The position numbers were made by a program, and so were the translations under genes. The notes beneath the pieces were generated by a model. That model worked only from the letters and a program-made list of their open reading frames with translations. It did not search any database and was not told the DNA's origin. Below, one piece after another: positions 41,780-46,135 of a stretch of DNA of 64,000 nt. The stretch is from Riemerella anatipestifer (GTDB taxonomy: Bacteria; Bacteroidota; Bacteroidia; Flavobacteriales; Weeksellaceae), in contig NZ_CP142016.1 of the NCBI RefSeq assembly GCF_035666175.1, positions 310,001 through 374,000 of the forward strand. The letters are read 5' to 3'. Each line of letters opens with the position of its first letter. The stretch's first letter is position 1.

Positions 41780-41862
41780 AATGTTTAATTATTTAGTCTA
41801 AATACTAAAATAGGTTATACTAAAGCGTTTAATGAAAATTTTTAGGTTTAGGTCTAAAATAT

Positions 41863-41885: not shown

Positions 41886-43244
41886 ATGAATCTAAAAAAA
41901 GACTTTTTCCTAGAGTGCTATCAACTAGGAATTATTAACTTTGGAAAGTTTACACTAAAAAGTGGTATAGAAAGTCCATTTTATGTGGATTTAAGACCAT
42001 TAGCTTCCGACCCTAAAATTCTTAAAAAACTAGCTTCTTACCTCTTGAATCTTACAGATACACAAGATACAGAGTTGATCTGTGGCGTACCTTATGCTGC
42101 TCTACCTATGGCAACAGCAATGTCTTTAGAGAGTGAAATACCGCTCATAATTAAAAGAAAGGAAGCTAAAGCCTATGGTACTAAAAAACTGATAGAAGGA
42201 ATTTATAAAGAAGGGCAAAAATGCCTTTTAGTAGAAGATGTGATTACCAGCGGTAAATCTTTACTTGAAACTATCCCTGAAGTTGAAAAAGAAGGGATTA
42301 AAGTAACCGATATTGTAGTAGTGCTAGACAGAGAACAAGGTGGAAAAGAACTGTTAGAAAAGCAAGGCTACCGTGTGCATACACTATTTGGAATAAGAGA
42401 AGTATGCGAAATGCTTTACAAAGAAGACTTATTGTCGGCAGAGGAAATAACGCAAATAAATCAGTTTTTAGACGGAAATCCTATTCAGTTTCAGGAGAAA
42501 AAAAGAATTTCTTATGAGTCTAAAATAGCTCACGCTAAACAGCCTGTTGCCAAAAGATTATTAGAAATAGCCTTAGAAAAACAATCTAACCTTATAGCTT
42601 CTGCTGATGTTATTACAACTAAGGAACTACTAGACTTTGCTGACAAGGTAGGACCTAATATCGTCGCTTTAAAAACGCACATTGACATCATCACCGATTT
42701 TGATTTTGACAATACCATACTTCCGCTCAAAGATTTAGCACAAAAGCATAATTTCTTATTGATGGAAGACCGAAAATTTGCGGATATTGGTAATACTCAA
42801 GAGCTACAGTATTCTTATGGAGTGTATCGCATTTCGTCTTGGGCGAATTTAATTACTTCACAAGTGATTGGTGGAGCTTCTTCATTAGATTATTTCTTAA
42901 ATTCGGGTGTGATTGCCATTTTAGGAATGTCCTCCGAAGGTACACTTACAGATGCTAACTACCGTGAGAAAGCTATTAAAATTGCACAAACGCACCCTAA
43001 TGTTATAGGTGGCGTTTCTCAAGATGCTTTACCTGAAGAGATGCTTCTTTTCACACCAGGTATTAATCTTGAAGACAAAGGCGATTCTAAAGGACAGCAA
43101 TACAACACGCCTGAACACGCCTTTAAAAAACTCCATACCGATTTTATAATCGTAGGTAGAGGTATTTACAAATCTGATGATGCAGAACAAGCTTCTCTAA
43201 AGTATAAAATAGAGGGTTGGAAGGCTTATCAAGAATCGTTATAA
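41886..43244 (+). CDS. pyrEF: Bifunctional orotate phosphoribosyltransferase / OMP decarboxylase (UMP synthase)
   Basis: The two last steps of UMP synthesis in one chain, 452 aa from ATG 41886 (a longer start at 41832 is less likely because a promoter box lies between). Residues 1-~200 are OPRT: FTLKSGIESPFYVDLRPLAS, LIIKRKEAKAYGTKKLIEG and the PRPP loop CLLVEDVITSGKSLLETI. Residues ~215-452 are OMP decarboxylase: NIVALKTHIDIITDFD, and the catalytic DxKxxD as Asp295-Arg-Lys297-Phe-Ala-Asp300 in LLMEDRKFADIGNT, then VIGGVSQDALPEEM and FIIVGRGIYKSDDAEQA. The decarboxylase half resembles the eukaryotic UMPS type (DRKFADIGNT plus QQYNTPE) more than the short E. coli PyrF. Confidence 0.94.
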   Translation: MNLKKDFFLECYQLGIINFGKFTLKSGIESPFYVDLRPLASDPKILKKLASYLLNLTDTQDTELICGVPYAALPMATAMSLESEIPLIIKRKEAKAYGTKKLIEGIYKEGQKCLLVEDVITSGKSLLETIPEVEKEGIKVTDIVVVLDREQGGKELLEKQGYRVHTLFGIREVCEMLYKEDLLSAEEITQINQFLDGNPIQFQEKKRISYESKIAHAKQPVAKRLLEIALEKQSNLIASADVITTKELLDFADKVGPNIVALKTHIDIITDFDFDNTILPLKDLAQKHNFLLMEDRKFADIGNTQELQYSYGVYRISSWANLITSQVIGGASSLDYFLNSGVIAILGMSSEGTLTDANYREKAIKIAQTHPNVIGGVSQDALPEEMLLFTPGINLEDKGDSKGQQYNTPEHAFKKLHTDFIIVGRGIYKSDDAEQASLKYKIEGWKAYQESL

Positions 43245-43251
43245 TAATCGC

Positions 43252-43290
43252 AAAGAGCTATTATAGAAATATCTATGACAGCTCTTTTTT
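43252..43290 (+). terminator. Terminator after pyrEF
   Basis: Outer stem AAAGAGCT / AGCTCTTT with an inner hairpin ATAGA / TCTAT, followed by a T run. Confidence 0.75.
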
Positions 43291-43313
43291 TCTTTTTATA
43301 TCATCTAAAAATG

Positions 43314-43336: not shown

Positions 43337-46135
43337 GTGAAAAAAGCATTATCATCTATTCTAATATTTTTATTTTTTATTCTAAGTTGTGCTGTAAAAG
43401 CTCAGCAAGATAGTGTTTGGGTTAAAGTTTCCTTTCCCGAAACGAAAGAAAATAGAGTTACTATCAATCAAAAAATCGTTCACTATCAAAACGAAAATTC
43501 AAATAGTATTCAGCTTCTAAACTGGACAGCAGCTTATCAACCTAAAAACACCACCCTAGCTAAAAGAATGCTAGAAGCTCGAAAAACTGACCTCTATTTC
43601 TCCAAACCAAAAGATAGAGGCTATCTAAAAGGTTTAAGTATCAACGGCGAAAAATATACCAATCTTGACCAAGAAATTATTACTATTCCATTAGAAAATA
43701 TCAAAAGTAGAGATAATAAAATAGAACTGAATCTAATCTACGAACTACAACTTCCACACTCCAAATACACAGGCATAGGCTGGGATTCAGAAAAAGAAAA
43801 AGCTTTACTAAAGTATTTCTTTCTGGTTCCTAATACCAGCTATACACCAAGACATTTCCAAAATTTGGACGAAAAACAATATATAGGTGTTTTTTGGAAC
43901 GTACAATTAGATAACCCTCTACTTAAAGCAAGTAGCAATCTGCAAGAAGTTCAGCCAAACCACTTTACAGGAACTCTAAATACAGACCCTGAATTTGTAA
44001 TTTCATTAAAAAATAGTGAGGAAAATTTCACAATAATCTACAAAAATACTTTAGTAGAGTTTGCCTATCCTGTAAAACAAGAGGAAAAACAATCGCTCTA
44101 TTTTTATGTGCCGCTTCAGCTCAATTTCATAGAAGAAAGTTTAGGTAAATTACCTAACAAAATACTCATAAGTGAAAGAACTAAAAACGAAAATAACTTT
44201 ACAGGAATTGATGATTTTAAGTTAGGAAAGTTTAAGTTTAAAATGTTCAGCGATGCTCAAAAAACTGATCTTAATTACTTCTCCATCATTTCAAAGAAGT
44301 GTGTAGAACATCTTTTACAAACGGATAATCTTAATGCCCATTGGATTGAAAACGGACTAAAAACATACTTAGAAATAAGATATCTAAAGACCGTTTATAA
44401 CGATGAAAAACTCTTAGGACAATTACCTGATAAACTCACTCTTTTCAAAATAAGCCCTCTAAAATGGAGTAATGCTTCTAAACTTAAGCTTACAGAGCGG
44501 TATGGGATTACTTATCAATACATTACTAGCCAAAATCTAGACCAGCCAATAGACACTCCACTCCAACTAATGAGTAACTTTAATACGATGGCAGTAAGCC
44601 AAATGGAAGCTGGAAGTTTGTTCAACTTTATTGCCGAAAAAATGGGCGTAAATCAGTTTAATAATTTTTTAAAAAGATATTTATCAGAACATAACGGAAC
44701 GGTTATCAATAAAGAAGATTTCTTAAATCAACTCATTGTTGAATCCAAATATTCTACAAATTTTGCAGCTAATTTCATCAGGAAAAAAAACAGATTAGAT
44801 TTCAAAATTAAAAAGGTTGAAAAACAAAAAAATGGACTGCTTGTTCATATTCACAAAAATACTGAGGAAAAAGTACCATTTCAATTAAAAGTTACAAATT
44901 TTGACAATCAAGATAGTCTATATTGGTATGATTCTTCGAACAAAAAGAAAGAAATTTACTACATTCCACAAACCGATGTAGAAAAAATCGTAATAAACGA
45001 CGACTATCTTCTTCCCGAATATAATGTTAGGAATAATTATCTCTATACCAAAGGAATATTCTATAATATGAAAAAGCCAAGACTAAAATTTTATACCGAT
45101 ATTCCAGACCCAGAATATGAGGAAATTTATATTTCACCTTGTTTAAATTATAATTTTTACGATAAAGTACTTATAGGAGCTCGTATAAGTAACAGTAATC
45201 TTTTAGACAAGCCTTTCCTTTATTCTGTAATGCCTTACTATAGTACAGGAACTAATAAACTTACTGGCTCAGCAGGAGTATCCTATAATATTTTACCACC
45301 TAACAGTTTTTTTCAAAATTGGAGAATAGGAGCAAATGCTACGTATTTTCACTATAATAAAGACTTGGCTTTTAGAAGACTAACAATTTTTTCTAATATC
45401 ACTTTGCCTAAAGATGCTAGAAGTCAAATAGAGCAAAGATTTGGGGCTTCATTTCAGCATCTTACAAGAGATTTAAGTCCATTGATGCAAAAAATGAACG
45501 ATTATGATAAGTATAGCTTATTCAATATAAATTATACCTACTCTGATAGAAAAGCTATACATGAAAAGCTATTTTCAACCAATTTCCAAGCAGGTGGAGA
45601 TTTTAGCAAAATTTCAGCAGAAGCCTTTTACAGATGGGAATATCAACAAAATAAAAAACTTAGTTTAAGATTTTTTGGAGGCTATTTTTTACAGAATCAA
45701 ACAAGAAACTCTTACTTTGATTTTGGAATTTCTTACTTATCTAACTATGCATTTACCTATAGCATCATTAGACAAACTAATAGCAACTACCTTGCTCCTA
45801 GACAATTTATAATGGCAGAAGGAGCGTTTAAGTCTGCTATAAATGATACCGCAAACCAATGGATAAACAGTGTTAATATAGACTTACATTCGTTCCGTTT
45901 CTTTAGCGTATACGCAGATGTAGGATTGTATAAAAATAAAAACCAATCTCCACACTTTATATGGGATACGGGTGCAAGTCTAAAAGTTATTCCTGATTTA
46001 TTTGAAATTTACTTCCCTATCCAATCATCTTTAGGGTTTGAGCCTTCTTTTAAAGACTACTCTAAAAGGATTAGATTTATGTTTAATTTCAACCTAAATG
46101 CAGTAGTAAACCAACTTAGGAGAGGTTGGTTTTAA
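43337..46135 (+). CDS. M1-peptidase-like protein lacking zinc motif, with C-terminal beta-barrel-like domain
   Basis: A 932-aa exported protein starting with GTG; the signal peptide is LSSILIFLFFILSCAVKAQ. The first ~600 residues follow the gluzincin aminopeptidase layout: an N-terminal beta-domain, then a helical domain containing His335-Trp-Ile-Glu338-Asn-Gly (NAHWIENGLKTYLEI), which lines up with the W(L/x)NEGFATY motif of M1 enzymes. The HExxH motif that should lie ~20 residues earlier is absent (the region reads IISKKCVEHLLQTD), so it is probably catalytically dead. The last ~330 residues (from about KPRLKFYTDIPDPEYEEIYI) are beta-rich with aromatic strands (LSLRFFGGYFLQNQ) and end in RRGWF, suggesting an outer-membrane barrel. 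Function unknown. Confidence 0.7.
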   Translation: MKKALSSILIFLFFILSCAVKAQQDSVWVKVSFPETKENRVTINQKIVHYQNENSNSIQLLNWTAAYQPKNTTLAKRMLEARKTDLYFSKPKDRGYLKGLSINGEKYTNLDQEIITIPLENIKSRDNKIELNLIYELQLPHSKYTGIGWDSEKEKALLKYFFLVPNTSYTPRHFQNLDEKQYIGVFWNVQLDNPLLKASSNLQEVQPNHFTGTLNTDPEFVISLKNSEENFTIIYKNTLVEFAYPVKQEEKQSLYFYVPLQLNFIEESLGKLPNKILISERTKNENNFTGIDDFKLGKFKFKMFSDAQKTDLNYFSIISKKCVEHLLQTDNLNAHWIENGLKTYLEIRYLKTVYNDEKLLGQLPDKLTLFKISPLKWSNASKLKLTERYGITYQYITSQNLDQPIDTPLQLMSNFNTMAVSQMEAGSLFNFIAEKMGVNQFNNFLKRYLSEHNGTVINKEDFLNQLIVESKYSTNFAANFIRKKNRLDFKIKKVEKQKNGLLVHIHKNTEEKVPFQLKVTNFDNQDSLYWYDSSNKKKEIYYIPQTDVEKIVINDDYLLPEYNVRNNYLYTKGIFYNMKKPRLKFYTDIPDPEYEEIYISPCLNYNFYDKVLIGARISNSNLLDKPFLYSVMPYYSTGTNKLTGSAGVSYNILPPNSFFQNWRIGANATYFHYNKDLAFRRLTIFSNITLPKDARSQIEQRFGASFQHLTRDLSPLMQKMNDYDKYSLFNINYTYSDRKAIHEKLFSTNFQAGGDFSKISAEAFYRWEYQQNKKLSLRFFGGYFLQNQTRNSYFDFGISYLSNYAFTYSIIRQTNSNYLAPRQFIMAEGAFKSAINDTANQWINSVNIDLHSFRFFSVYADVGLYKNKNQSPHFIWDTGASLKVIPDLFEIYFPIQSSLGFEPSFKDYSKRIRFMFNFNLNAVVNQLRRGWF

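Follow-up and report, generated by a model that had tools for sequence, protein, structure and literature searches.

Family-wide conservation of a fused, eukaryote-like UMP synthase in Weeksellaceae and its unfused relatives among scattered bacteria

Most bacteria encode OPRT and OMP decarboxylase (OMPDC) in separate pyrE and pyrF genes, and the OPRT-OMPDC fusion known as UMP synthase (UMPS) is generally presented as typical of animals and plants. Makiuchi et al. 2007 are said to have dealt with independent fusions. Passages of PMC2705460 give the order of the plant enzyme as OPRT-OMPDC and assign a reverse, OMPDC-OPRT, fusion to kinetoplastids, oomycetes, diatoms and some cyanobacteria; an excerpt of PMC7052976 describes the reverse fusion in trypanosomatids. 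According to part of PMC9978035, human UMPS is an S-shaped active dimer able to assemble into inactive condensates. Our search of the literature, which covered open-licence papers only and is weak as evidence of absence, brought up no article about either OPRT-OMPDC fusions or gene pairs of the eukaryote type in the bacteria considered here.

The window analysed, a stretch of 64,000 nucleotides from Riemerella anatipestifer (contig NZ_CP142016.1, positions 310,001 to 374,000), contains a single open frame in which both domains are joined (Table 1). It opens with ATG at 41886 and closes with TAA at 43242-43244. An in-frame ATG further upstream, at 41832, would lengthen the protein to 470 aa; we place the start at 41886 because the best relatives align from that position and the frame in genome G281, likewise of 452 aa, starts exactly there. 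The preliminary description of this DNA had read the gene as one chain with OPRT first and OMP decarboxylase second, and the Pfam matches bear this out, with PF00156 at residues 43-155 (1.7e-11) preceding PF00215 at residues 234-440 (5.6e-44).

Table 1. Coordinates of the UMP synthase gene, its parts and adjoining features in the window
Feature	Position	Strand	Basis or remark
Fused UMP synthase, OPRT-OMPDC	41886..43244	+	452 aa, stop codon included; open frame and Pfam
OPRT domain, residues 11-195	41916..42470	+	alignment to human UMPS OPRT 2wns, query 11-195
Presumed PRPP-binding motif CLLVEDVITSGKS, residues 113-125	42222..42260	+	sequence
Interdomain linker, short, residues 196-204	42471..42497	+	model pLDDT <50 at residues 199-204
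OMP decarboxylase domain, eukaryotic type, residues 205-452	42498..43241	+	Pfam, solved-structure search, structural match
Catalytic Lys263 (yeast K59 equivalent)	42672..42674	+	K in 59/59 aligned OMPDC rows
DRKFADIGNT with catalytic Asp295, Lys297, Asp300	42768..42797	+	aligned OMPDC rows
GQQYNTPE loop, presumed tyrosine of phosphate site	43092..43115	+	Y in 59/59 aligned OMPDC rows
Inverted repeat AAAGAGCT...AGCTCTTT, then T run	43252..43293	+	by eye, unscored; possible terminator directly past the UMP synthase gene
932-aa protein directly downstream of UMP synthase	43337-46135	+	weak peptidase M1 match, below cut-off

The Lys-Asp-Lys-Asp tetrad (Lys263, Asp295, Lys297, Asp300) and the PRPP motif of the OPRT half are both intact in the window protein. 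Within CLLVEDVITSGKS, the presumed PRPP-binding motif, residues D118, S122, G123 and S125 are invariant across an alignment of 17 fused proteins, and in DRKFADIGNT the first D and the K are kept in 59/59 aligned OMPDC rows and the second D in 58/59. The tyrosine of GQQYNTPE is presumably the phosphate-site residue, as in yeast and human OMPDC. An AlphaFold2 model, for which 17 fused proteins served as input, had a mean pLDDT of 87.3 and a pTM of 0.60; its OPRT part matches the human OPRT domain with a target-normalised TM of 0.90 at 41-42% identity, and its OMPDC part matches the human OMPDC domain with the same TM of 0.90 at 41% identity. The N-terminal OPRT would convert orotate and PRPP to OMP, and the C-terminal decarboxylase would convert OMP to UMP and CO2 by way of the tetrad; both reactions are established chemistry of these families.

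Separate pyrE and pyrF genes, which the preliminary description had proposed looking for, were not found in the genome itself (99.98% complete) by profile searches with PF00215 and TIGR00336, since PF00215 matches the fused gene alone, making it the sole OMP decarboxylase, and TIGR00336 scores above its cut-off solely at the same gene, with two further matches far below. Earlier steps of the pathway are represented by one aspartate transcarbamoylase gene and one gene of the dihydroorotate dehydrogenase family. Judged by these profile matches, the fused gene appears to be this genome's one complete route through the final two reactions to UMP, and would stand in for separate pyrE and pyrF.

Both halves of the protein are nearer to UMPS and eukaryotic enzymes than to ordinary bacterial PyrE and PyrF, among solved structures as well as in trees. 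For the OMPDC half the best solved chains are the UMPS of Coffea arabica (8u0z, 197.8 bits) and the yeast enzyme (1dqw, 192.4), with human UMPS next; for the OPRT half, human UMPS (2wns) scores 182 bits and Leishmania UMPS 137, against 80 for the top bacterial PyrE. Human and plant enzymes came up among the solved structures as individual domains only. The eukaryotic-type motifs to which the preliminary description had drawn attention, DRKFADIGNT and QQYNTPE, are not only present but belong to a protein whose eukaryote-like type holds for both halves. NCBIfam's general models for pyrE and pyrF are likewise matched with scores over their cut-offs, and none of the 20 NCBIfam models listed for the protein represents the whole OPRT-OMPDC arrangement. 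The OPRT half reaches 203.5 bits with NF010382/PRK13809, probably a chlamydial model, just under the cut-off of 208.

Within the window's family, Weeksellaceae, an assignment with which tree neighbours such as Weeksella and Empedobacter agree, the fused gene was found in 294/296 sampled genomes, and in 286/286 once completeness of 90% or more and contamination of 5% or less are required; the two genomes lacking a match are 89% and 56% complete. Matches printed individually, which were a part of this total, are near full length and 71-99% identical. Across the phylum, the full-length fused protein occurs in 9/395 sampled Bacteroidota genomes, all of the window's family and including the window's own, and 42 further matches among the 395 extend over no more than the OPRT end. 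A sample of 60 genomes from the order Flavobacteriales contains 13 with the fusion, spread over four families: seven from the window's family, one each from families f57 and f63, and 4/5 of those from f69, a family whose members of 0.6 Mb fall with Blattabacterium in the tree. Of the same 60, 42 have an ordinary OMPDC frame, mostly of about 270-300 aa, while no match was obtained in five. At E 1e-3 the eukaryote-type profile is not hit by the ordinary OMPDC at other Flavobacteriales loci, and the window protein is not of the ordinary Flavobacteriales PyrF class (single-domain OMPDC, about 270-300 aa). The suggestion of an old fusion in this lineage is supported by its presence throughout one family and in three others of the order. 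A fusion widespread in Bacteroidota, which the preliminary description had named among the findings that would count against its reading, is not what we see: the gene is absent from all 386 sampled Bacteroidota genomes outside the window's family, although carriers do occur in those three families and in Saprospira.

In Saprospira the fused copy lies on plasmids (three plasmid records), so that transfer within Bacteroidota is possible. On a plasmid of Saprospira grandis Lewin (L042, 1-3107), genes with KilA-N domains come after the fused gene, along with another OMPDC fragment, this one C-terminal; it looks as though a portion of the fused gene had been duplicated around a KilA-N insertion. 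A plasmid of Saprospira sp. CCB-QB6 (L043, 824-7362) holds guaB, guaA, dihydroorotate oxidase and the fused UMP synthase together; core nucleotide synthesis is carried on a plasmid in this strain. A metagenome-assembled genome labelled Flavobacteriaceae (L047) has a Saprospira-like fused gene as well as an ordinary 277-aa OMPDC elsewhere, and because of the latter its contig may be misbinned.

When eight window genes were compared with 26 loci, the 932-aa gene downstream recurred beside UMP synthase in 7/8 loci of the same family (L013-L020) and in 0/18 others. The other window genes compared did not recur in the 26 loci, save for one purN match in a Saprospira locus.

Relatives outside the family were sought by scanning a single genome from each species with aligned fragments from Saprospira, human, Coffea and yeast; the fragment was chosen so that its peptide patterns miss most of the window's family, leaving other carriers among the 80 loci kept of 192 confirmed. 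Among these 80, in which counts are not prevalences, 23 were fused (20 of them Bacteroidota), in 37 the OMPDC gene was immediately preceded by an OPRT gene of the eukaryote type, nine had a weakly scoring OPRT (eight upstream, one downstream) and 11 had no OPRT within the stretch examined. Carriers beyond Bacteroidota in this selection are Chlamydiae, Gammaproteobacteria (Legionellales, Rickettsiella, Piscirickettsia and Cysteiniphilum), Patescibacteria (Magasanikbacteria, for example), Dependentiae, Verrucomicrobia and Myxococcota. The eukaryotic type is therefore not confined to eukaryotes; it is scattered through bacteria, mostly as adjacent OPRT and OMPDC genes in the order of the fusion. 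At E 1e-30 the OMPDC type was present in 31/116 sampled genomes from the phylum of a chlamydial centre and in 10/239 from the phylum of a Magasanikbacteria centre. One of those 31 (G799; locus L154, 1386-2807, minus strand) encodes a fused OPRT-OMPDC of 474 aa, which a quick tree groups, on a long branch, with gammaproteobacterial and myxococcal rows. In a Parcubacteria bin (L058, 3147-5438), a 764-aa frame combines a PyrK-like electron-transfer part (PF00175, PF10418) with OPRT and OMPDC, so that three pyrimidine enzymes are apparently fused in one chain. In a tblastn search of 50,697 phage records, 36 were matched, but not one over 80% of the query, and two scans of viral contigs yielded no confirmed relative.

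Trees were built from 80 OMPDC rows, 72 OPRT rows and 64 joined rows of 440 columns. Near copies (L108, L110, L117, L118, L119, L045 and L014) and the contig-end locus L059 were left out beforehand; the OPRT tree also omits L113, L122 and L056, includes five ordinary PyrE rows and has its long branches flagged, and the joined tree further omits more near copies and all rows with an OPRT below 180 bits. Eukaryotic sequences of this type number three for OMPDC and two for OPRT only. All Bacteroidota fall on one side of a branch in the OMPDC tree (100/100). In the OPRT tree the Bacteroidota fusions group together (98/84) within a eukaryote-type group (96/89) that leaves ordinary Bacteroidota PyrE outside, and the joined tree splits the eukaryote-type rows, human included, from the five ordinary Bacteroidota PyrE at 100/100. 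Neither half falls in with ordinary bacterial enzymes, the outcome that the preliminary description had named as counter-evidence: PyrE of the usual bacterial kind stays apart, and so does the usual OMPDC of other Flavobacteriales. In the joined tree the Bacteroidota fusions make up a single clade (99/100) on a branch of 0.61, within which Saprospira joins a Bacteroidia metagenome-assembled genome (97/95) and the Flavobacteriales hold together (100/100). Human, Coffea and yeast lie outside this clade, elsewhere among bacterial rows, in positions without resolved support, and the fused rows from Patescibacteria (L049, L058) and Gammaproteobacteria (L075) sit among unfused pairs. An AU test rejected a single clade of all fusions with human and Coffea (p 0.0006), from which it follows that fusion in the OPRT-OMPDC order happened more than once and that a common domain order is weak evidence of a shared fusion. 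A clade of the three eukaryotes is compatible with the data (p 0.426), and we accordingly make no claim of eukaryotic paraphyly; a clade uniting human and Coffea with the Bacteroidota fusions is likewise compatible (p 0.279), for which reason we do not claim that the Bacteroidota fusion arose independently of the one in animals and plants.

Taken together, our observations on architecture, gene content, distribution and trees are best read as a bifunctional UMP synthase, ancient and vertically kept, in place of the ordinary pyrE and pyrF, a reading that we regard as very probably correct. We infer that the protein is enzymatically active and assembles as a dimer, and that its two genes were adjacent before they fused. 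The fusion was probably already present in the ancestor of the window's family, Blattabacterium and two neighbouring families, and the Bacteroidota fusions, those of Saprospira included, constitute a single clade. A local fusion of ordinary bacterial PyrE and PyrF, made eukaryote-like through chance motifs, might be entertained given that most bacteria have separate genes and that the general NCBIfam models pass their cut-offs; yet the 100/100 separation from the five ordinary Bacteroidota PyrE, together with the failure of other Flavobacteriales' ordinary OMPDC against the eukaryote-type profile at E 1e-3, makes it highly improbable. We give next to no credence to a eukaryotic gene brought into the contig by contamination or misassembly, in view of its presence in 294/296 family genomes, with 71-99% identity in the rows printed, and of the 932-aa gene that adjoins it in 7/8 same-family loci.

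As to ultimate origin, we put forward tentatively that the eukaryotic OPRT and OMPDC may come from a bacterial pair, kept in Chlamydiae, Patescibacteria, Dependentiae and Legionellales-like bacteria, which fused repeatedly: in Bacteroidota, in Patescibacteria (in one instance preceded by PyrK), in Gammaproteobacteria, in one genome from the Chlamydiota sample and in the animal/plant line. Adjacent OPRT and OMPDC genes of the eukaryote-type subfamily, standing in the same order, would be a likely start for such repeated fusion. Ancient passage of the fused gene from a eukaryote to the ancestor of these Bacteroidota seems unlikely, for the Bacteroidota clade stands apart on its branch of 0.61, with human, coffee and yeast elsewhere among bacterial rows, even though the domain order is the same, the closest solved relatives are eukaryotic, a clade that unites human and coffee with the Bacteroidota fusions has a p-AU of 0.28, and many carriers live with or in eukaryotes (Chlamydiae, Rickettsiella and Blattabacterium). 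The word eukaryotic in the preliminary description, if meant as a eukaryotic source, is not supported: the type is scattered in bacteria, mostly as gene pairs, and the Bacteroidota clade is not nested among the few eukaryotic sequences. A recent transfer from a eukaryote into R. anatipestifer is ruled out by the family-wide presence of the gene. It is also doubtful that a single bacterial fusion was ancestral to both Bacteroidota and animal/plant UMPS, eukaryotes having received the gene already fused; the identical domain order and the p-AU of 0.28 speak for this, whereas the best tree has no such grouping and an all-fusions clade is rejected (p-AU 0.0006).

The fused UMP synthase is thus genuine, conserved and old, and its kind was known before; what is new is the reliance of a family upon it, the pairs that scattered bacteria keep unfused and the repeated fusion in a single order. 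With an entire bacterial family depending on an OPRT-OMPDC fusion, and with unfused pairs of the same type in intracellular and other scattered bacteria as a natural intermediate for its origin, wider sampling could put the source of eukaryotic UMPS to the test. Since the enzyme type is shared across the family and by scattered bacteria, its interest lies mainly in the source of our own enzyme. It is also conceivable that compounds developed to inhibit human UMPS would affect these bacteria, and vice versa.

Ordinary bacterial PyrE and PyrF carry out the same reactions, but from separate genes and at a distance in sequence from the window protein. The reverse OMPDC-OPRT fusion (PRK05500) unites the same two activities in the opposite order; the window's OPRT half matches that model at 156.8 bits, and with the OPRT part alone matching, the protein misses the whole-model cut-off of 656. 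Eukaryote-type pyrE-pyrF pairs of Chlamydiae, Legionellales-like Gammaproteobacteria, Patescibacteria and Dependentiae belong to the same subfamily in both halves and keep the same order, but as two unfused genes in the 37 of 80 loci kept (192 confirmed). The Saprospira plasmid 'pyrF' (WP_015695551.1) is fused in the same order, with 43% identity to the window protein over 454 columns, although it is plasmid-borne and annotated as OMP decarboxylase only; near residue 335 the window protein is six residues shorter than the Saprospira and other-phylum fusions. With animal and plant UMPS (human, Coffea arabica) the window protein shares the OPRT-OMPDC order, both domains and the catalytic residues, and is about 40% identical to the human domains of solved structure, while being bacterial and forming, with other Bacteroidota, a clade of its own.
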